64,000 nucleotides of DNA from Neoarius graeffei (taxonomy: Eukaryota > Chordata > Actinopteri > Siluriformes > Ariidae): contig NC_083571.1 in the NCBI RefSeq assembly GCF_027579695.1, positions 31,844,943 through 31,908,942 of the forward strand. The letters are read 5' to 3'. The notes below the pieces were generated by a model. That model searched no databases, was not told where the DNA came from, and worked only from the letters and a program-made list of their open reading frames with translations. This document shows positions 4,121-45,865 of this stretch, piece by piece. Position numbers and translations under genes: made by a program. How positions within the stretch are numbered: position 1 is the stretch's first letter; the number at the start of each line of letters is the position of its first letter.

Positions 4121-5458
4121 TTAAAGGGGAACTGAAGTCATTTTTAAACTTGCTTTATTTCTTAATTAACATGTTATTCAATTACATTTTCGGTTTTATT
4201 AACCTTATATCATGACTCGTATTGGCGTATTATATTACACTTATCGGTTTTTAGCCATGTTGAATGTAGTTCGTACCGTATGGTCCACGGCAGGCGTCGC
4301 TTATCCGCGCGATCTTCACGAGACTTGTGCGAGACTTCAAACGTGAAGTGTCAGCGCTGCCATTTTGAAAACCGTTTATACAGCGGCCAGATCGCCATGT
4401 CATTCCAATTTTAGATTCATTTCGAGATTTGCCAGCTTCATCAGTGATGGAGATTATTCCATACGACTTCCAACCAACGTGGAGTAGAGAAGAGTTGGAA
4501 AGAAGGCAGGATAAGGACGAGTCCGTCGCGCTGGTATTTACGTCATTACTGTCGCACAATTAAAACGTGCCAGGTCAGGCAGCTGGTGGGTTTTCAAAAT
4601 AAACACATGCATGTATTTTTGTGATAAATAAATACATATTATACTGAGCGCATTTCCCACATAATCCTCACTAAGGTTTCGGACAGCGCTACAAAATGGC
4701 GTCTCCACTATATAGTGCCCTAAATAGAGAGTAGGGAGAGATTTCGGACACAGGGAAAACTTCCAGCTTGATTACATCAGCATTCGAAAGAGGGCGCGCG
4801 CGTCTTTTGACAACGTTGGCAGATGTCGGTCGCTTTGATTTCCGCTGTACGTTTTACTTCTGTCCTACCATGTCTCGCACAGGTCTCAGTAAATCTCGTT
4901 TATGGCCGTCGCTTTGACATATGGACTGATATGTTACAGAGCGTATTTCAAACACTCATAATGTGCTCTAGCAGCGACAAAATAGCTGCCAGAAATGCAT
5001 TCCTATAGTTAATCAAATGAGAAATAGAATTTTCTCATCTCATCTCATTATCTCTAGCCGCTTTATCCTGTTCTACAGGGTCGCAGGCAAGCTGGAGCCT
5101 ATCCCAGCTGACTACGGGCAAAAGGCGGGTACACCCTGGACAAGTCGCCAGGTCATCACAGGGCTGACACATAGACACAGACAACCATTCACACTCACAT
5201 TCACACCTACGGTCAATTTAGAGTCACCAGTTAACCTAACCTGCATGTCTTTGGACTGTGGGGGAAACCGGAGCACCCGGAGGAAACCCACGCGGACACG
5301 GGGAGAACATGCAAACTCCACACAGAAAGGCCCTCGCCAGCCACGGGGCTCGAACCCAGACCTTCTTGCTGTGAGGTGACAGCGCTAACCACTACACCAC
5401 CGTGCCACCAGAAATAGAATTTTGATAATAAAAAAATTTGCCTTCAGTTCTCCTTTAA
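4121..5458. mobile_element. TTAA-flanked non-autonomous DNA element, copy 1
   Basis: Both ends read TTAA followed by an inverted terminus: TTAAAGGGGAACTGAAG at the left, and the inverse of TTAAAGGAGAACTGAAG at the right. TTAA duplication is the hallmark of piggyBac-type (and Kolobok) transposons. A related, shorter copy lies at 27696-28382. No recognisable transposase is present; an antisense ORF at 4251-4559 matches no family I know. A SINE is inserted at 5034-5410. The superfamily assignment is an inference from TTAA alone. Confidence 0.75.
5034..5410 (-). repeat. tRNA-derived SINE (DANA/V-SINE type), copy a, full length
   Basis: Read on the minus strand, the repeat starts GGTGGCACGGTGGTGTAGTG, with A-box-like (TAGTGGTTAGCGC) and B-box-like (GGGTTCGAGCC) pol III signals. 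Next comes a conserved central block (GTTTGCATGTTCTCCCCGTG to CAGTCCAAAGACATGCAGG) that I recognise from the zebrafish DANA/V-SINE group. A LINE-like 3' part follows, with an ATGAG microsatellite tail. A 13-bp duplication GAAATAGAATTTT flanks it (5021-5033 and 5411-5423). The empty site survives in the TTAA copy at 28340. Antisense ORFs over it are not genes. Confidence 0.9.
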
Positions 5459-5614
5459 GTGAGTAATCTGGAGAGATTGTTTAATTAGTCAGCCAGCAAG
5501 TTTAAAACTTTCAGGTTGTAAAGGCCAGTTGGTGTTTTAGATAGAGAGATAGATTACTGAATAGATAGGTAGATGGATGTATTTTATTGGGTTTGGGTGC
5601 TACATTATATCAAG

Positions 5615-5615
<1 letters not shown>

Positions 5616-5662
<47 letters not shown>
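5616..5662. repeat. (TA)n microsatellite
   Basis: About 23 uninterrupted TA dinucleotides followed by a short ACAC run. Confidence 0.97.
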
Positions 5663-5667
<5 letters not shown>

Positions 5668-7984
5668 GTATTAACAAATCACACACAGTGCCAAAGACAT
5701 CAGCAATGATTTTAAGGTGTAAAAAATATAACAAGGAGAAAAATAAAGGCAACAACCCAGATGATGAGTATAGGATCAATGTATATGAATTAATTGAATT
5801 GAATTCCCACTCGTTCATTCATTCTGCGAAGCTGGAGGCACGTCCTGTTGGGAGGAGGCATCGTGGAGCCTGATGGCAGCTGGCAAAAGAGACTCCCTGA
5901 TTTATGGATGGCTGGCAGAGCTTCTACACAACCATGATTGCCCACTCAGTGAGGCTTGTTACAAAATATGCTCAATAATGTGGTACCAGGAAGCATTTCG
6001 GTACCTGACCAGTGCTAATGGTGCCTATAGTCGCCTGTACAGGAGCAGAAAGCAATGTCTATAACTACAGTTCTGAGTGAGATGTCAGCAGACTTTAAAG
6101 GAGATATGCAGAACCTTTATTTTTAAATACATTTCTGAGTGGATAGTATCTCCATCCTTGACTCTTGTATGCTGCATAAATGGGAATTTAAAAATATACA
6201 TTTTTGAGAGTTAAAATCGACCGCAAAGTTGGCGTTCGAGCTGCCCCGCTGAGCCAGCCAGCCCTGAGTGCGTGACGTCACAGCGGTAACCGGTTTTAAG
6301 GCCGAGGCCTTTTACAGTGTAGGTACAGTCCCTTTAGAAACTACATTTCCCATCAGCCCACTTCCGCGTTGACCTGCGTCACGCCGGGGCGGGATCACCA
6401 CCACATCCTCGCTAAAAGCATAAGACAAAGGGAAATGCTCCGCCCTTCCTCTTTCCGTCTCTGGACCGGTGGTCTTCAGACACAAAGCGACTGCTCGCTT
6501 CGCGGGCAAATCCGAAAACACCTCTTTCTTGCAAGATCCATCATTCAGCGCGATTTCTTTCTTACCCTTGGCCAAGGTAAACTCCAGAGTCGCACGATCT
6601 TTAAACTCAACCTGAGTTACAACCGGTTCATTCGTATTAGAAGTGACATCATGACTGCCGCCCAAACGCAGTTTTAATTTGTAATTAGGAGCGACCAGAA
6701 TTCCTCCTGATTGAAGCGCTGTGCACATTAATTTTAATCAGAGACTTTCCTTTCATCACGAACGACGCATCAGATCAAGAGAAGTTCTCTGTCCACGGAA
6801 TCGACTCACGGAATCGACTCACGTGCTCCACAACGGCGAGACTCAGAAGTTTTAGAACATCTCCCTAATCTTGCATATAAGCGAGATACTGGAAGTAAGA
6901 CTGTCAACATTTTGGGCATAAATAAAGATCAGTCTTAGGAATTTAGCTTTTATTGAAACAGTGTGAATTTAAACTCAGGAAAGTTCTGTTTACACTATTA
7001 GACACGCAGCGTGTCGAATTGAATTGTTCTGTTTTTAATCTCTCAATTAGATAGGCAGTGCATGCTTCTTTTTACTAATCTCCTTAACACACATTTTGAC
7101 CTTATCAAGATTTCAGGGGATTTGATAATGTTATAAGTAGGTAGAATTCCTTTGTCTCAAGGCAAACCACAAGGATTCACCTTCCCCCAACACCTCAGAT
7201 AACATTCCAAACTTTATAGCCCCCTCACCACACACACACCCTTGCTCTCCCTCTCACAGATAACATTCCAAACTTTATAGCCCCTCTCACACACACGCTC
7301 TTACACATCTACATACTCAAGTATATGACCATATTATCATATTTGTATACATCTGCTGACATTCTTTTTTTTATTTTATCTTTGTTATAATAAATTCATT
7401 TATTAAACAAACTGTGTTCTATTTGTGTGAACAATATCTGAAGTCCCCAATCTCTCAAAGAATTCAAAAAGGTGCAGATAAGTTATGTAATATGGTAAGT
7501 GATCAATAATAATTTGGAATATACCATAATTTAGCTGTTTGGTAATTTACTATTAAGCACCAGGGTTAATGGTATGATTTACTTTGAATGATTCACTGAT
7601 TCACTTTGAATGATTCACTGATTCGATTCACTTCAAACGATTCAAATGAGACTGATTCATTTTAACTATTAACCTTCAAATTTAATGAGACTGATTTAAT
7701 GAGATCACTTAATAATTACCAAATGCACCTACAACAGCTATAGACCAAAGTCATATAAATAAACATTTATGGTGAAAGTAAGAAATCCCGTTACCGACTT
7801 GCTCAACTAAGACTGATTTGACTTCATGGATTGTGGGTTGACTCTCATTAAAACAGGATAGGTGTTATAACTTATGCAACATACATGTACATGCATGCAT
7901 TTTCACTGATAAAACGTAAAAGGCGAATTAAATAATCAGATGAACTGAAACAATCACATTCTGAAGCAAATTAAATAATCTTAT
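5663..7984. other. Spacer; local 61-bp duplication and GATTCACT repeats
   Basis: No gene that I can support. A 61-bp tandem duplication starts at 7196 and 7257 (shared CAGATAACATTCCAAAC). Imperfect GATTCACTTTGAAT repeats lie at 7570-7650. A TTAAAGGAGATATGC start at about 6095 resembles the left end of a TTAA element, but I find no matching right end. ORFs at 6312-6728 (minus) and 6369-6677 (plus) overlap each other and resemble nothing known. Confidence 0.5.
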
Positions 7985-26762: not shown

Positions 26763-27578
26763 CCATCCATTATCCATAACCACTTATCCTGTGCAGGGTC
26801 ACAGGCAAGCTGGAGCCTATCCCAGCTGACTATGGGCAAAAGGCAGGGTACACCCTGGACAAGTCACCAGATCATTGCAGGGCTGACACATATGCCCCTT
26901 TTCCACCAAAGCAGTTCCAGGGCTGGTTCGGGGCCAGTGCTTAGTTTGGAACCGGGTTTTCTGTTTCCACTGACAAAGAACTGGCTCTGGGGCCAGAAAA
27001 ACCGGCTCCAGGCTAGCACCAACTCCCTGCTGGGCCAGAGGAAAGAACCGCTTACATCAGCGGGGGGGCGGAGTTGTTAAGACCAACAACAATCGCAAGA
27101 CCTCGAAAGGTCGCCATTTTTAAGCGCCAAGAAGCAGCAGCTGTACAAATGCGAAGTCATCCATTATTGTTGTTGTTCCTTCTTCTTTTTCTCCGTGTTG
27201 TTGTTGCTTTGATATTCGCGCCAAGGTTTATGCAAACGCAGCGACGTAACTGACGTATACAGCGATGTAACTGACGTATACAGCGACGTAATGACGTGGC
27301 TCCGCTTAGCACCACGAGCTATGGAAAAGCAAACTGGTTCTCAGCTGGCTCACAAGTTGAACGAGTTGTGAACCAGCACCAAGACTGGCCCCGAACCAGC
27401 CCTGGAACTGATTTGGTGGAAAAGGGGTAATAGAGACAAACAACCATTCACACTCATCTATGGTCAATTTAGAGCTACTAGTTAGCCTAACCTGCATGTC
27501 TTTGAAAGGCCCTTGGCTCAAACCCAGAACCTTCTTGCTGTGAGGCAACAGCATTAACCATTACACCACCATGCCACC
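26763..27578 (-). repeat. SINE copy j (older subfamily), split by a MITE
   Basis: The 3' part is 26763-26892 and the 5' part is 27430-27578. GGCTGACACAT before the insertion and TAGAGACAAACAACC after it join into normal SINE sequence. Flanks GGAATCACC and AGAATCACC are on both sides. The head region also lacks about 50 bp (CATGTCTTTGAAAGGCCC). Confidence 0.88.
26893..27429. mobile_element. MITE inserted in SINE j (CCCCTTTTCCACC ends)
   Basis: A 537-bp element with inverted ends TGCCCCTTTTCCACCAAA and TTTGGTGGAAAAGGGGTA, extending inward through CAGTTCCAGGGCTGGTTC and its inverse. The flank ATA (or TA) is duplicated at 26890-26892 and 27430-27432, checkable against intact SINE sequence. The interior has triplicated words around CAGCGACGTAACTGACG (27239-27290). 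No coding sequence. Confidence 0.85.
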
Positions 27579-27695
27579 CTACTAGAATCACCTAACTATC
27601 AAATAAAGCTGCAGTATGACTATTATTAGCCACGTTCCTTTGCCAACAAAGATGACACCAACACCATATAGTTTTAATAAGATGACACTGTACAT

Positions 27696-32599: not shown

Positions 32600-33800
32600 A
32601 GCCTGTAATATGAGCGAGAGGGGGGCGGAAGGGGGAGAGAAGGGGAGAAAAGAGAGATTTATGCAGGAAGAATTAAAGAGAGAGATGGGAGTGAGAGATC
32701 CAAGGAGAGCGAGATTTGGGAAGAGAGAAAGAGAAATACAGGAAGAAATACAGAGAGATAAAAAACATGAGAGATACTGAGAGATATACAGGAAGAGAGA
32801 AAAAGAGGGAGGCAGGGAGAGAGATACAGTGAGGAGAGAGAGATAGTTACGGGTACAGAAAAAGTGACAGAGATGCACATGGAAGAGAAAGAGAGAGACA
32901 GAGCTAGAGAGAGGGTGCCACAGCGAGAGATAGAGGGAAAGAGAGATACAGATGGGAGAGAAAGAGAGAGATAAAGGGAGAGAGAGATACAGATAGAGAG
33001 AGGGACAGATGGGAAAGAGAGAGATACAGATAGAGAGAGAGACAGATGGGAAAGAGAGAGATACAGGGAGAGAGAGATGCAGATAGACAGAGACAGATGG
33101 GAGACAAAGAGAGTGATAAAGGGAGAGAGAGATACAGATAGAGGGACAGATGGGAAAGAGAGAGATACACATACAGAGAGAGAGACAGATGGGAAAGAGA
33201 GAGATACAGGGAGAGAGAAATACAGATAGACAGAGACAGATGGGAGACAAATAGAGTGATAAAGGGAGAGAGAGATACAGATAGAGAGAGGGACAGATGG
33301 GAAGAGATACAGATAGAGAGAGGGCCAGATGGGAAAGAGAGAGATACACATACAGAGAGAGACAGATGGGAAAGAAAGAGAGAGATACAGGGAGAGAGAT
33401 ACAGATAGAGAGAGACAGATGGAAGAGAGAGACACAGATAGAGAGACAGATGGGAGAGAAAGAGAGAGATACAGGGAGAGAGAGATACAGATAGAGAGAG
33501 AGACAGATGGGAGAGAAAGAGAGAGATACAGATAGAGACAGATGAGAGAGAGATATACAGGGAGAGAGAGATACAGATAGAGGGACAGATGGGAGAGAGA
33601 TACAGGGAGAGTGTGATACAGGGAGAGAGAGGGACAGATGGGAGAGAAAGAGAGAGATACAGAGAGAGAGCATGACAGGGAGATACAGATGGGACAGATA
33701 CAGGGAGAGAGAGAGAGAGAGAGAGAGATACAGTTGGAAGAGAAAGTGAGAGATATAGGGAGAGAGCAAGACAGGGACAAAGATACAAGGAGATCAAGTG
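32600..33800 (+). repeat. Long purine-rich minisatellite (GAGAGATACAGATGGGA type)
   Basis: About 1.2 kb of almost only A and G on the plus strand, broken by regular ATAC or ATAGAC steps. Units such as GACAGATGGGAAAGAGAGAG and ATACAGGGAGAGAGAGATAC alternate with lengths of about 35-75 bp. Three long minus-strand frames of Leu-Ser-Ile-Cys repeats arise because all frames of CT repeats lack stops; I do not accept them as genes. Confidence 0.93.
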
Positions 33801-38317: not shown

Positions 38318-39239
38318 TACAACCCCGATTCCAAAAAAGTTGGGACAAAGTACAAATTTTAAATAAAAACGGAATGCAATAATTTACAAATCTCAAAAAC
38401 TGATATTGTATTCACAATAGAACATAGACAACATATCAAATGTCGAAAGTGAGACATTTTGAAATTTCATGCCAAATATTGGCTCATTTGAAATTTCATG
38501 GCAGCAATACGTCTCAAAAAAGTTGGAACGAGAGCAATAAGAGGCTGAAAAAGTTAAAGATACAAAAAAGGAACAGCTGGAGGACCAAATTGCAACTCAT
38601 TAGGTCAATTGGCAATAGGTCATTAACATGACTGGGTATAAAAAGAACATCTTGGAGTGGCAGCGGCTCTCAGAAGTAAAGATGGGAAGAGGATCACCAA
38701 TCCCCCTAATTCTGCGCCGACAAATAGTGGAGCAATATCAGAAAGGAGTTCGACAGTGTAAAATTGCAAAGAGTTTGAACATATCATCTACATTGTATAT
38801 CATTATTCCAGATTCTCTGAATCTTTTGATGATCTCTGTGCGTAAGGGTCAAGGCCGGAAAACCATACTGGGTGCCCGTGATCTTCGGGCCCTTAGACGG
38901 CTCTCAGAAGTAAAGATGGGAAGAGGATCACCAATCCCCCTAATTCTGCGCCGACAAATAGTGGAGCAATATCAGAAAGGAGTTTGACAGTGTAAAATTG
39001 CAAAGAGTTTGAACATATCATCATCTACAGTGCATATCATCATCAAAAGATTCAGAGAATCTGGAATAATATCTGTGCGTAAGGGTCAAGGCCGGAAAAC
39101 CATACTGGGTGCCCGTGATCTTCGGGCCCTTAGACAGCACTGCGTCACATACAGGCATGCTTCTGTATTGGAAATCACAAAATGGGTTCAGGAATATTTC
39201 CAGAGAACATTATCTGTGAGCACAATTCACCGTGCCATC

Positions 39240-39387
39240 TGTTTCAAGAACGAGGACACGATGGTGCGGGTGTACTTGACTATTCGTGTTGTTGCAAGAG
39301 GCCGCAAGTTACAGTGGGTAATCACATAGAACAACCACAGGTGCAGTAACACAAACAACAGCAGGTGGCAGCACACATCCTGTAACA
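39240..39387 (-). repeat. 3' LTR
   Basis: 148 bp, identical by eye to the LTR at 44793-44940. In element orientation it begins TGTTACAGGATGTG and ends GTTCTTGAAACA. Confidence 0.95.
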
Positions 39388-40313
39388 TCTCATCTCATTA
39401 TCTCTAGCCGCTTTATCCTTCTACAGGGTCGCAGGCAAGCTGGAGCCTATCCCAGCTGACTACGGGCGAAAGGCGGGGTACACCCTAGACAAGTCGCCAG
39501 GTCATCACAGGGCTGACACATAGACACAGACAACCATTCACACTCACATTCACACCTACGGTCAATTTAGAGTCACAAGTTAACCTAACCTGCATGTCTT
39601 TGGACTGTGGGGGAAACCGGAGCACCCGGAGGAAACCCACGCGGACACAGGGAGAACATGCAAACTCCACACAGAAACCTGTAACATCTCATCTCATCTC
39701 ATCTCATTATCTCTAGCCGCTTTATCCTTCTACAGGGTCGCAGGCAAGCTGGAGCCTATCCCAGCTGACTACGGGCGAAAGGCGGGGTACACCCTGGACA
39801 AGTCGCCAGGTCATCACAGGGCTGACACATAGACACAGACAACCATTCACACTCACATTCACACCTACGGTCAATTTAGAGTCACCAGTTAACCTAACCT
39901 GCATGTCTTTGGACTGTGGGGGAAACCGGAGCACCCGGAGGAAACCCACGCGGACACAGGGAGAACATGCAAACTCCACACAGAAACCTGTAACATCTCA
40001 TCTCATCTCATCTCATCTCATTATCTCTAGCCGCTTTATCCTTCTACAGGGTCGCAGGCAAGCTGGAGCCTATCCCAGCTGACTACGGGCGAAAGGCGGG
40101 GTACACCCTGGACAAGTCGCCAGGTCATCACAGGGCTGACACATAGACACAGACAACCATTCACACTCACATTCACACCTACGGTCAATTTAGAGTCACC
40201 AGTTAACCTAACCTGCATGTCTTTGGACTGTGGGGGAAACCGGAGCACCCGGAGGAAACCCACGCGGACACAGGGAGAACATGCAAACTCCACACAGAAA
40301 CCTGTAACATCTC
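39379..40313 (-). repeat. Tandem triplet of 5'-truncated SINEs at the LTR junction
   Basis: Three SINE copies in the same orientation, each truncated at TTTCTGTGTGGAG (no tRNA head, no pol III boxes). The 13-mer CCTGTAACATCTC occurs four times, at 39379, 39678, 39987 and 40301, bracketing every copy. Periods are 299, 309 and 314 bp; the increments are multiples of the 5-bp ATCTC tail unit. The 13-mer is the host sequence spanning the LTR end and the polypurine tract, so it is the target duplication of the founding insertion. Copy 1 has private changes (CCCTAGACAAG, GTCACAAGTT). Confidence 0.93.
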
Positions 40314-40322
40314 CCTTTTCTT
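40310..40322 (-). other. Polypurine tract of the LTR retrotransposon
   Basis: On the minus strand AAGAAAAGGGAGA, the expected primer for plus-strand DNA synthesis. In an uninterrupted element it would abut the 3' LTR start TGTTACAGG; here the SINE triplet separates the two by over 900 bp. Confidence 0.8.
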
Positions 40323-40529: not shown

Positions 40530-43403
40530 TCAAAGATCAAGTCTGTTTGGTGGCCTGGTCAGCCGACCATAGCGTGAGGTGACTGGAGGCCTTGTTGGTG
40601 TGGATGTTATGTCAACAGCTGGGCTGTCGACATGCTCAGGTGGGGTAGCGCACGCTGCATGGCTGGCCTGCTCCTTGGTAGCTACCTCTGGCTCGGTTCT
40701 ATGCACATGGCTGTCTGAAATCTGCGGTGTACTTGTAGTTGGTTCTGCCTCCCGAAGATCAACCCTGTTTCGGCGGTAGAGAGCTCCTTCTATGTCGACC
40801 AGGTAGGACCATGGGGCAAGCCTCTGCACGCAGGATCCCCGTCTCCAGATGCCTGTCCGGTCACCAGGCAATGGCTTCATTCGCACCGCTTGGCCTACCG
40901 TGAGCTCAGGTAGGTCCTTGGCTGAGCTGTCATAGGTTGCTTTGGCGACCTGCTTCCTATGATGCAGCTTCTCCAGCAGTCTGGACACCACACACGGTTC
41001 CAACAGCTTGCTGGCCACCGGAAGCGCTGTCTTAAGACGCCTTGACATCAGGCGCTGCGCTGGGCTGCTGTCCATTCCTTCAGTCGGTGTGTTGCGCCAC
41101 TGCAGGATTGCTTTCCAGGCATCCTCGCCCTCACGGTGGGCTTTCTTGCATAAGTTCTTTGCTATCTTGACTGCTGCTTCAGCTTTGCCGTTGGCCTTGG
41201 GATGATGTGGAGATGAGGTGATGTGTTCAAACTCCCACTGTGCTGCGAACTATTTAAACTGGAGAGATGCGAACTGAGGGCCATTGTCTGAGATTAGACG
41301 GCCAGGCTGCCCATGGCAAGCGAACTGTGCCTTGCAGCGTTTGATTGTTGTCTCGGCCGAGAGATCTGGGAGGAGGTCAATCTCCCAGAAATCTGAATAA
41401 TGATCGACCATCAGGAGAAAGTCTTTGCCATTTTGCTGGAAGAGATCAGTGCTGACAATCTGCCATGGGCGTGTTGGCAGTTCGTGAGACATCATTGACT
41501 CTTTCTGCTGATGGATAGCATACTCATTGCAGACTGTGCACTTGCCTACAAAGTCTAGGATGTCGGCTCGCATCCCTGGCCAATACAGCGTATCGCGTGC
41601 TTGCCTGTAGCAGGCCTCGCCCCCAATGTGGCTTGCATGTACTCTTACTAACATCTCATGACACAGTGCTTTAGGGATAACGACCCTGTCTCCCCTGAAC
41701 AGCACTCCATTCTGAACACTGAGCTCCTGCTTGTAAGCCCAGTATTCTCTCACCTCCATTTCGGCGTCTTCTTTGCGATCAGGCCAGCTCTTCAGTGTCA
41801 CTGTCTTCACCGCCTGGAGCTGCTCGTCTCTCTCTGTGTGCTGTCGAATTTGAATGAGTCTCTTGTCTGTGACATTAAGATAGTCAGCCTGGTTGATTTG
41901 TTCTACCTCCCTCTGTTCTGTTTCCAGACAGCAGACTGTGTGTGTGCCAATCCTGGAGCTTGTGCGTGTGTCTGCCACAGTGGCCCTGCTGAGCGTATCA
42001 CTCACATACATCTCTGGGCCAGGCTTGTATACGACTGCGAGATTGTAGCCCTGTAGAGACAGCAGCATGCTCTGTAGGTGCTTCGGGGCATTCAGCAGTG
42101 GCTTGCTGAAGATGGCAACGAGGGGCTTATGATCCGTCTCTGCAGTGACACTGTTGCGCCCGTACAGATACTGATGAAAGCGTTGGCATGCAAATACAAT
42201 GCTTAGGCATTCCTTTTCGATTTGGGCGTAATTCTGCTCTGTTGGCGTGAGAGCCCTCGAGGCAAATGCAACAGGTTGGCCTTCCTGCAACAGCACACAG
42301 CCCAGGCCATGCTGGCTAGCGTTGCTCTGGATTGTCACCGCCTTTGTCACATCATAGTAACGCAGCACTGGTGTTGTAGTCACCAGCTGCTTGACTTCCT
42401 TCACTGCTGCATCGTGTTTTGGAAGCCAGTGCCACACCGCATCTTTATCTGTGAGTCTCCTCAGTGGCTCACAGACCTCTGAAAGGCGTGGCAGGAACTT
42501 GGCCAGGTATGTCACGAAGCCAACGAACCACTGTACGGCCTTCACATCTGTCGGGAGGGGCATGTCCATCACTGCCTTCACTTTCTCTGGGTCAGCTTTC
42601 AGACCCTCTGCCGAAAGGATATGCCCATGAAAGCGAACCTCTGGCACTTTAAACTGGAGCTTCTGTATGCTGAGCCAAAGTTTGACTTGTCGGCATCTGT
42701 CCATGAGGGCAAGCAGCTTTGCATCGTGGTCACGCCCTGCTTCCTCATCTGAATCCCCGCAGCCCACGATGAGGATGTCATCTGCTATAGGGTACACCCC
42801 ATTGAGCCCCACCAGGAGCTCATGCTGTTTCCGTTGGTACACCTCTGGGGCCACAGAGATGCCGAACGGGAGTTTCAGCCAGCGCTTGCGCCCCCAGGGT
42901 GTCCAAAAGGTGGTCATGTAGCTGCTTGGTTCGTCCAGTCTGCACTGTAGAAAGGCGTCCCTCGCGTCCACCAAGGTGAAGGCCCTAGCTTTGGGGAGCT
43001 TGTAAAGTATGTCCTCCAGAGTGGGCATGATGTAGTGTGATCGCAGCAGAGCCTGGTTGAGGTGCTTTGGGTCAATGCATATTCGCAGTTTGTCTGGTTT
43101 CTTGATGATCACCATGTTGCTGATCCAGTCAGTCAGCTCTGTGACTGAGGTGATGTGGCCCTCCGCCTCGTATTTTTCCAGTGGAGCTTTCACTGCCGCC
43201 CTCATGGCGACTGGGACGTTGCAGGGGGCACTCTGGACTGGCTGAACTGCTGGATTTAGCTGAAAGTGCACCACCCCCGGGACGGATTCTACTGGCGTGG
43301 TGAAGACATCCTGATACCTCTCGAAGAGAGTCTCTCTTCTCAAAAACCCATCCTGGGTGCTACTGTCCACTGCATTCAGGCCTGCTGGGATAGTAAACTG
43401 CAT
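40530..43403 (-). pseudogene. Retrotransposon pol (RT, RNase H, integrase), one stop codon
   Basis: The frame begins near 43403, overlapping gag by 28 bp in the -1 frame. Reverse transcriptase: D146 in FTLVDARDAF, and IADD at about 206-209 (the YxDD box). RNase H: NASQHGLG at 361, where most relatives have DAS, then E of QIEKECL and D of AETDHKPL. Integrase: HHCC zinc finger (HASHIGG, then CTVC), then D of STDLF and D of SDNGPQF. An in-frame TAG at 41250-41252 stops it just after these. The same frame then stays open for 239 codons, with HHPKANGKAEA (third catalytic residue) and a C-terminal tail ending at 40530. Copies DNA from element RNA and integrates it in active relatives. Confidence 0.92.
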
Positions 43404-44602
43404 AAGTCCGAGGCACTCGCATGTGGACCCCGAAAGCAGTGGCTGCTGTTAACTATCTCAAATTCTAAGGTGTGTTTGCGGTCTCGCACAACACACTCTG
43501 TCACGAACAGACCCATGGAAGTCATCAACTGACCTGAGTAGAGCTTGAGCTTGGTGCTGCTTGGCATGAGTTTTTCTTGAGGTGCAATTCGCATCTTGTC
43601 TCTCAGGCTCATAACGTCACATGTGGCTCCCGAGTCTAGCTGGCACTTTTGCTTAGTGCCATTCAGTATGACAGCAGCGAACCACTTTTTTCCTTTAGGA
43701 CCAACAGCCCCAATGCATTTGGTTGTGAAGAGATCATCTCTGCTGTCTGTTTCCTGGGAAAGTATTGGATTGTCCATGGAGTGAACCTGAGCAGGTGCTT
43801 CGGATCCCTTGGTTTTCATGCAGACGCGAGCAAAGTGGTTGGGTGTACCGCAAGCTTTGCACACCTTTCCATAGGCAGAACATTGCTCTCGCCCTCTTCC
43901 ATGATGGACACCACAGTATCTGCATGCAGAGCCATTGTCTGTAGCCGTGGCTGTGGCTGGGGTGTATTTTTTCTTCTGCTTCCAGTTAGGACGGGGAGTT
44001 TTATTTGATGGCTGTCTGGACACTGCGTGGACGCTGTCTGTCTGTGGCTTGTCTTGTTCCATAGATCTTAGTGTTTTGTCTGTCAACTCTGCGGCTCTGC
44101 ATAATTCCAAGGCTTTGGCCAGCGTTAGAGCTTGTTCTCTCAACAGCCGTCTACGAGTGGCCTCATTGGCAATGCCAAGTACTAATTTGTCTCTGATTAA
44201 TTCGTCCCTTAGGGCCCCATAGTCACAGGTTGCTGCTTTTTCTCTCAAACGGGTAACAAAAGTGTCAATGGACTCACCATCCTCCTGTTTGCAAGAGCCG
44301 AAGACATAGCGCACATATATTACGTTTTTAGACTGGTGGAAGTACTCCGCTAATTTATCCAGAACTTTCTTCACGTTGTTGCGTTCTGCCTCCGTCAACT
44401 GCAGGTTGTGCTTGTAAACATGGTGACACTCTGGCCCCATTAGACTCCTCAACGTGGCAGCCTGAACCACTGATGATGCCTGTGTTAAATCCACTGCTAA
44501 ACTGTAATCTTCGAATTCAGCCCTGAAGATGTCCCAGTTCTTGCTCCAGTCTCCGCTGAGCTTCATTGGAGTGGGAGGTGGGATCGGGTAGTTGAATGCC
44601 AT
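43376..44602 (-). CDS. Retrotransposon gag-protease
   Basis: A 408-residue frame, MAFNYPIPPP. Gag packages element RNA in cytoplasmic particles. Residues 1-180 are capsid-like (FRAEFEDYSLA, then FGSCKQEDGESIDTFVTRLR). Two zinc knuckles lie at about 227-241 (CRYCGVHH, then C) and 248-261 (CKACGTPNHFARVC, CX2CX4HX4C). An aspartic protease starts near 320 with LDSGATCDV. It ends QQA at 43376, 28 bp past the pol start, so pol would need a -1 shift or reinitiation. I cannot point to a convincing slippery heptamer. No internal stop. Confidence 0.9.
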   Translation of the reverse strand: MAFNYPIPPPTPMKLSGDWSKNWDIFRAEFEDYSLAVDLTQASSVVQAATLRSLMGPECHHVYKHNLQLTEAERNNVKKVLDKLAEYFHQSKNVIYVRYVFGSCKQEDGESIDTFVTRLREKAATCDYGALRDELIRDKLVLGIANEATRRRLLREQALTLAKALELCRAAELTDKTLRSMEQDKPQTDSVHAVSRQPSNKTPRPNWKQKKKYTPATATATDNGSACRYCGVHHGRGREQCSAYGKVCKACGTPNHFARVCMKTKGSEAPAQVHSMDNPILSQETDSRDDLFTTKCIGAVGPKGKKWFAAVILNGTKQKCQLDSGATCDVMSLRDKMRIAPQEKLMPSSTKLKLYSGQLMTSMGLFVTECVVRDRKHTLEFEIVNSSHCFRGPHASASDLCSLLSQQA

Positions 44603-44774
44603 CTTGACCGCAATGTTATGTTACACAGAAGCTAATCTGCCCGGTAGTGCTAGCGATACTGTGCTAAACTAATAAAACAAAAAACGGCATATGCATAGCT
44701 GATGAACTCACTGCTTAATTGCACTGTCCATTAACTGTCAATTCGTCGTCAAGTCGTCGCATTTATTAACAGCT

Positions 44775-44792: not shown

Positions 44793-44940
44793 TGTTTCAA
44801 GAACGAGGACACGATGGTGCGGGTGTACTTGACTATTCGTGTTGTTGCAAGAGGCCGCAAGTTACAGTGGGTAATCACATAGAACAACCACAGGTGCAGT
44901 AACACAAACAACAGCAGGTGGCAGCACACATCCTGTAACA
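44793..44940 (-). repeat. 5' LTR
   Basis: The 148-bp upstream LTR in element orientation. Short for the class; no clear TATA box. Confidence 0.95.
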
Positions 44941-45865
44941 CCATCCGCCGTTGCCAGCTAAATTTCTATAGTTCAAAGAAGAAGCCGTATCTAAACATGA
45001 TCCAGAAGCGCAGACGTCTTCTCTGGGCCAAAGCTCATTTAAAATGGACTGTGGCAAAGTGGAAAACTGTTCTGTGGTCAGACGAATCAAAATTTGAAGT
45101 TCTTTATGGAAATCAGGGACGCCGTGTCATTCGGACTAAAGAGGAGAAGGACGACCCAAGTTGTTATCAGCGCTCAGTTCAGAAGCCTGCATCTCTGATG
45201 GTATGGGGTTGCATTAGTGCGTGTGGCATGGGCAGCTTACACATCTGGAAAGACACCATCAATGCTGAAAGGTATATCCAGGTTCTAGAGCAACATATGC
45301 TCCCATCCAGATGACGTCTCTTTCAGGGAAGACCTTGCATTTTCCAACATGACGATGCCAAACCACATACTGCATCAATTACAGCATCATGGCTGCGTAG
45401 AAGAAGGGTCCAGGTACTGAACTGGCCAGCCTGCAGTCCAGATCTTTCACCCATAGAAAACATTTGGCGCATCATAAAACGGAAGATACGACAAAAAAGA
45501 CCTAAGACAGTTGAGCAACTAGAATCCTACATTAGACAAGAATGGGTTAACATTCCTATCCCTAAACTTGAGCAACTTGTCTCCTCAGTCCCCAGACATT
45601 TACAGACTGTTGTAAAGAGAAAAGGGGATGTCTCACAGTGGTAAACATGGCCTTGTCCCAACTTTGAGATGTGTTGTTGTCATGAAATTTAAAAAATCAC
45701 CAAATTTTTCTCTTTAAATGATACATTTTCTCAGTTTAAACATTTGATATGTCATCTATGTTCTATTCTGAATAAAATATGGAATTTTGAAACTTCCACA
45801 TCACTGCATTCCATTTTTATTTACAATTTGTACTTTGTCCCAACTTTTTTGGAATCGGAGTTGTA

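Follow-up and report, generated by a model that had tools for sequence, protein, structure and literature searches.

A tandem triplet of truncated SINEs bracketed by four copies of one target duplication at an LTR boundary in Neoarius graeffei

Nested elements and anatomy of the array

The window, which is the whole 64-kb stretch (64,000 nucleotides) of the Neoarius graeffei contig NC_083571.1 that was analysed, at G000:C3:31844943-31908942 in the genome searched, contains a Tc1-like element interrupted by an LTR retrotransposon. One LTR of the latter is joined to three antisense SINE units in tandem. The features are listed below by window position.

38318..39239, no strand: left portion of the Tc1-like host, containing a tandem duplication
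39235..39239, no strand: left copy of CCATC, the 5-bp target duplication of the LTR element
39240..39387, minus strand: 3' LTR of the probable Ty3/gypsy-like element, 148 bp, TG...CA, identical to 44793-44940
39379..39391, plus strand: SINE target-duplication copy 1 (9 bp of LTR and TCTC; sequence match)
39392..39677, minus strand: SINE unit 1 (U1), with 2 pentamers and two private substitutions
39678..39690, plus strand: target-duplication copy 2 (sequence match)
39691..39986, minus strand: SINE unit 2 (U2), with 4 pentamers
39987..39999, plus strand: target-duplication copy 3 (sequence match)
40000..40300, minus strand: SINE unit 3 (U3), with 5 pentamers and the same body as unit 2
40301..40313, plus strand: target-duplication copy 4, next to the purine tract and overlapping it (sequence match)
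40310..40322, minus strand: presumed polypurine tract, in element sense AAGAAAAGGGAGA then TGTTACAGG, read from the sequence
40530..44620, minus strand: open frames of the LTR element, one in gag position and pol (RT, RNase H and integrase zinc-binding domains; Pfam)
44793..44940, minus strand: 5' LTR, without a SINE, followed from 44941 by CCATC and then by Tc1-like flank
44941..44945, no strand: right copy of CCATC
44941..45865, no strand: right part of the Tc1-like host

The two identical 148-bp LTRs, running from TG to CA and with CCATC on both sides, are those of an LTR retrotransposon, and a single CCATC was found at the corresponding site in the three other Tc1-like copies compared. In minus-strand frames between the LTRs, PF00078, PF17919, PF17917 and PF17921 exceeded the Pfam cut-offs. 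The match to the integrase core, rve (PF00665), did not reach its cut-off, and Pfam gave no match for the gag-position frame or for the last frame of the element. Judging by their coordinates, the frames at 41250-43448 and 40530-41249 are one pol frame with a stop in the integrase region. By domain order alone (RT, RNase H, integrase), the element is probably Ty3/gypsy-like. In element sense, TGTTACAGG, with which the LTR begins, directly follows AAGAAAAGGGAGA, and we take 40310..40322 to be the polypurine tract.

The Tc1-like host has an internal tandem duplication of about 241 bp (window 38664-39141), with a 7-bp overlap at 38898-38904. A 32-bp stretch (38802-38833) is inverted in one of the duplicates relative to the other duplicate and to other Tc1-like copies. 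Elsewhere in the window, an imperfect, GA-rich tandem repeat of about 1 kb occupies 32719-33733.

The preliminary description had placed four copies of a 13-mer, CCTGTAACATCTC, at 39379, 39678, 39987 and 40301. String search of the 64-kb window recovered exact plus-strand copies at these positions and no further copy on either strand. Chance repetition was ruled out, as about 0.001 copies of a given 13-mer are expected per strand in 64 kb with equal base frequencies, and as the copies belong to a tandem repeat, reported by Tandem Repeats Finder as 3.0 copies of period 314 with 98% matches (39386-40313). The 13-mer consists of the last 9 LTR bases (39379-39387) and four bases of the purine tract, which puts the array at the junction of LTR and polypurine tract, as described before. 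It is present at both outer ends of the array and between the units, in the manner of a target duplication made by target-primed reverse transcription (TPRT). On the plus strand, (ATCTC)2, (ATCTC)4 and (ATCTC)5 adjoin CCTGTAAC, so that a 3' repeat tail lies beside the duplication, again as in TPRT. A target-sized junction, the 13-mer, between the copies is also what characterises tandem elements formed by double insertion.

The three SINE units between successive 13-mers recur with periods of 299, 309 and 314 bp. All of them start 5' at the same SINE nucleotide, position 83 of the mapping reference, and lack the head of about 82 nt that full-length window copies have, as truncated copies do; their identical truncation was thus correctly recognised earlier. 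The bodies are 281 bp each and agree at 279 to 281 of the 281 sites: U2 and U3 are the same, and U1 departs at two private sites. Between CCTGTAAC and the body, there are two ATCTC pentamers in U1, four in U2 and five in U3, counting the pentamer inside the 13-mer, and one pentamer is the sole difference between U2 and U3. The tails therefore increase by 10 bp and then by 5 bp; the periods given in the preliminary description were correct, but the regular 5-bp steps were not.

The SINE family and its copies elsewhere

The units are 94 to 98% identical to full-length SINEs in the window and are copies of a dispersed family of about 370 bp. The full-length window copies carry a conserved head, which is presumably tRNA-like. 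ARAGORN found no tRNA gene, and no Rfam family reached its gathering score. We call the family a SINE on account of its dispersion, its tail, its target duplications and the presumably tRNA-like head. It is presumably similar to the fish SINE called Mermaid/Merman. Among 60 copies scored for target duplications, which include the triplet and the tandem loci L017 and L036 (below), 38 had a match at least 7 bases long, and in 28 of these 38 its length was 11-15 bp.

For comparison with other copies, the window and 20 arbitrary 10-kb stretches from four contigs (L029-L048) were combined into a sample of 264 kb, 7,888 bases of which are N. It yielded 51 SINE matches, a count that takes in fragments as well as the triplet units. 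None of the 29 copies outside the triplet that reach the 3' end started at position 83. The 24 body-spanning copies outside the triplet were 1 to 57 sites from U2 (median 11); none was identical to it, and just one lay within two sites. All three units have 111T, a minority base: in the same sample, 6 of 35 non-triplet copies carry it. The two private alleles of U1 were found in none of the other scored copies (0/66 and 0/67), U2 and U3 being counted among these.

A second set consisted of 39 loci outside the triplet, selected for their resemblance to the body. In three of these loci the best copy started at position 83, in two at 76-77 and in the other 34 at 1-13. Independent SINEs starting at position 83 were found in L007, L019 and L053, so we downgraded the identical truncation as strong proof of duplication: with position 83 a recurrent end point, the shared 5' end carries less weight than it seems to. 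At two of these loci, L019 and L053, the bases preceding the SINE start repeat the first bases of the SINE itself. The near-identity of the units was likewise weakened as strong evidence, by copies that differ from U2 at a single site within positions 83-359. L005, L009 and L036 each hold such a copy, and in a genome search with the body, those in L005 and L009 had a rounded identity of 100% over the aligned part, outside the triplet. Taken together, these facts favour one founder insertion, and the near-identity of the triplet units would argue against their independent insertion.

Two of the searched regions have arrangements of their own. In L005 (1013-1795), a single pair of target copies apparently encloses a 5' fragment of the SINE, about 300 bp of other DNA and a complete SINE. 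L055 and L056 (G000:C14:4495800-4496600 and G000:C14:3983350-3984150) share their flanks on either side over the length displayed, and the pair is apparently a segmental duplication.

Tandem SINEs were also found at two other loci, which weakens the general statement of the preliminary description that SINEs insert singly, as both have a repeated linker or target in the same genome. L017 (G000:C9:69049300-69051000; 481-1265) reads ACAGAATCCATCAT, unit A, ACAGAATCCATCAT, unit B and then AGAATCCATCAT. The base shared by most of 38 young copies served as a yardstick over positions 7-346. Where B and the young copies disagree, unit A sided with B at 14 of 14 sites within 9-117 and with the young copies at 13 of 13 sites within 133-340, two of which are gaps in B; one more site, 36, was private to A. 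The tail of A is a young (GAGAT)n and that of B is (GGAT)n. Unit A is thus a one-switch chimera, its 3' part coming from a new insertion and its 5' part from the resident B, with the join made either during cDNA completion or by later gene conversion. This chimeric dimer is less ordinary than the triplet, and it points to a route that had not been listed before, in which a new insertion is joined in register to a resident copy.

L036 (G000:C2:50000001-50010000; 4578-7894) holds three clearly diverged tandem SINEs in the arrangement S1-AATAATA-S2-AATAATA-S3, S2 being interrupted by 2,222 bp with CTATG at both sides. S1 is preceded by (AAT)n and the 3' flank lacks AATAATA, so AATAATA is a candidate target only. 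L017 and L036 show copies from independent insertions elsewhere in the genome. The 264-kb sample contains six pairs of neighbours less than 60 nt apart. The triplet and L036 account for two pairs each; of the remaining two, in L047 and at window 27430-27579, each seems to be a single copy with an internal deletion. On a rounded count of about 45 copies, chance alone would give about 0.08 same-strand neighbours within 20 nt in this sample. Among the 39 loci picked by similarity, four pairs less than 80 nt apart were detected. One of them is L017; L006 has two, one on the same strand with a spacing of 23 nt and one on opposite strands, and L026 has a further opposite-strand pair. The window was picked for its array and hence provides no evidence on the rate of tandem SINEs.

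Origin of the array

Identical in sequence to its partner, the LTR at 44793-44940 adjoins CCATC and is free of SINEs. The simplest order of events that we infer from this SINE-free LTR is a Tc1-like element, then the LTR element within it, then one truncated SINE and finally local multiplication. The earlier proposal that one headless SINE landed at the LTR/polypurine-tract junction, and that the unit of duplication and SINE was then multiplied, is supported by the shared 5' end, by 111T and by the identity at 279 to 281 of 281 sites.

The same proposal had named amplification during reverse transcription of the LTR element as an attractive alternative, by template switching or by plus-strand priming at the junction. 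The array does lie exactly at the plus-strand primer site. However, the purine tract is upstream of the array in element sense, so an array present in the element RNA would be expected in both LTRs, and the other LTR, identical over its 148 bp, has none. Priming at the (GAGAT)n tail would be needed instead. We dropped this as a leading idea on account of the SINE-free LTR and consider it very unlikely.

Duplication at the DNA level after one founder insertion is the origin that we favour for the triplet, with confidence a little better than even, since it yields identical units without further assumptions. The LTR element would first have integrated into the Tc1-like element. The SINE RNA would then have been reverse-transcribed at a nick directly after CCTGTAACATCTC on the window plus strand. 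There, the primer end ATCTC of the 13-mer could pair with the (GAGAT)n tail of the RNA, for which it is the primer to be expected. Synthesis would have stopped at the recurrent end point, position 83, leaving a headless SINE between two 13-mers. A first duplication of the 13-mer and SINE unit may have followed by slippage or exchange through 13 bp (plus pentamer) of homology. The next step would have been easier, as unequal exchange could draw on about 300 bp of homology, and would have produced units 2 and 3. The array would be a by-product of retrotransposition and recombination, and we propose no cellular function for it.

DNA-level duplication fits the four exact 13-mers and the single 5' end of the three units, the identity of U2 and U3 over 281 bp, the privacy of both U1 alleles and the presence of 111T throughout. 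It also fits the distance of the non-triplet copies in the 264 kb, which have a median of 11 sites from U2 and no start at 83 among 29, and the absence of a SINE from the LTR at 44793-44940. Its weak point is the initial step, for which 13 bp of homology only is available; the mirror reaction, precise loss of Alu by recombination between target duplications, is called extremely rare in a passage of PMC5402677. Three tail lengths despite the identity of U2 and U3 also count against it, as fresh reverse transcription would give these without extra slippage, as do the recurrence of position 83 as a 5' end and the gain of a unit by new insertion in L017, in the same genome.

The differing tails and the case of L017 make homology-completed TPRT the most serious rival. 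In this scheme, each insertion recreates the nick site, and a later cDNA pairs in register with the resident SINE and copies its 5' end and target duplication, so that two rounds result in three units. The chimeric unit A of L017, with its 5' sites from B, its young 3' sites and its different tail, is such an outcome, and the equal 5' ends, exact 13-mers and different tails of the triplet would be explained. Against this, the triplet has no chimeric signature: U2 equals U3, so donor and resident would have had to match in both rounds. L017 itself may alternatively result from serial insertion followed by gene conversion. We therefore hold two rounds of homology-completed insertion to be a possible but rather unlikely origin of the triplet, and are equally tentative about the broader view that the SINE arrays of this genome grow in this way, with L017 as the chimeric case and the triplet as two rounds.

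Three independent insertions at one regenerated target, without recombination, have a parallel in the three mutually diverged SINEs and AATAATA linkers of L036. Equal duplication lengths are not very unlikely given their clustering at 11-15 bp, position 83 recurs as a 5' end in L007, L019 and L053, and L005, L009 and L036 hold copies one site from U2 (83-359). Yet the end at position 83, the same second cut and 111T would each be needed three times, together with near-zero divergence against a median of 11, and we give this explanation hardly any credence. An assembly artefact, either an expanded repeat or merged haplotypes, is improbable. U2 and U3 are one pentamer apart and we considered the assembly sequence alone, but U1 has two private substitutions and all tail lengths differ. 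In addition, the contig that holds the window is 120.8 Mb long and one of 38 in a genome of 2,341,909,251 bases, which suggests long-read data. A mixed history, intermediate between DNA-level duplication and homology-completed insertion, with insertion first and unequal exchange second, is compatible with all of the observations.

Comparison with known systems

Titles and abstract starts among the matches listed in a literature search described no SINE array bracketed by one target duplication, which does not amount to absence from print, and pattern scans of viral contigs gave 0 stretches. Several known systems share part of the anatomy. The HAmo SINE of carps, as portrayed in a passage of PMC2653535, has an L2-type LINE as partner, and slippage of the tail repeat at initiation was proposed for it. 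Like the window SINE, whose head is presumably tRNA-like, it combines a tRNA-like head, a short 3' tandem repeat and target duplications, but it measures 150 bp and has TAAATG repeats, whereas the window SINE measures about 370 bp and has (GAGAT)n. A passage of PMC3811975 names the Mermaid/Merman SINEs of catfish. Penelope-like elements form tandem pseudo-LTRs, according to a passage of PMC8969392, and resemble the triplet in their tandem second copy and 5' truncation. Their tandem arrangement is a property of the element's own insertions, and that passage mentions no target copy between the units.

The triplet is real and instructive, not exotic. It is a nested and ordered example of a dispersed SINE becoming a tandem repeat, a step towards satellite DNA. 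With L017 and L036, it raises the question whether tandem SINEs come from DNA duplication or from insertion templated on a resident copy; identical units would mark the former and one-switch chimeric units the latter. Double insertion of transposable elements is a substrate for satellite DNA in McGurk and Barbash 2018, as cited in passages of PMC9659126 and PMC12368964. The tandems of those passages resemble the triplet in lying head-to-tail at one site, in their target-sized junctions and in that later unequal exchange can expand them. Unlike it, they concern Drosophila, the P element and class II elements, whereas the triplet consists of near-identical, truncated units of a target-primed SINE. 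Tandem elements arising by double insertion and later expansion are thus already known, and the triplet belongs to that kind.
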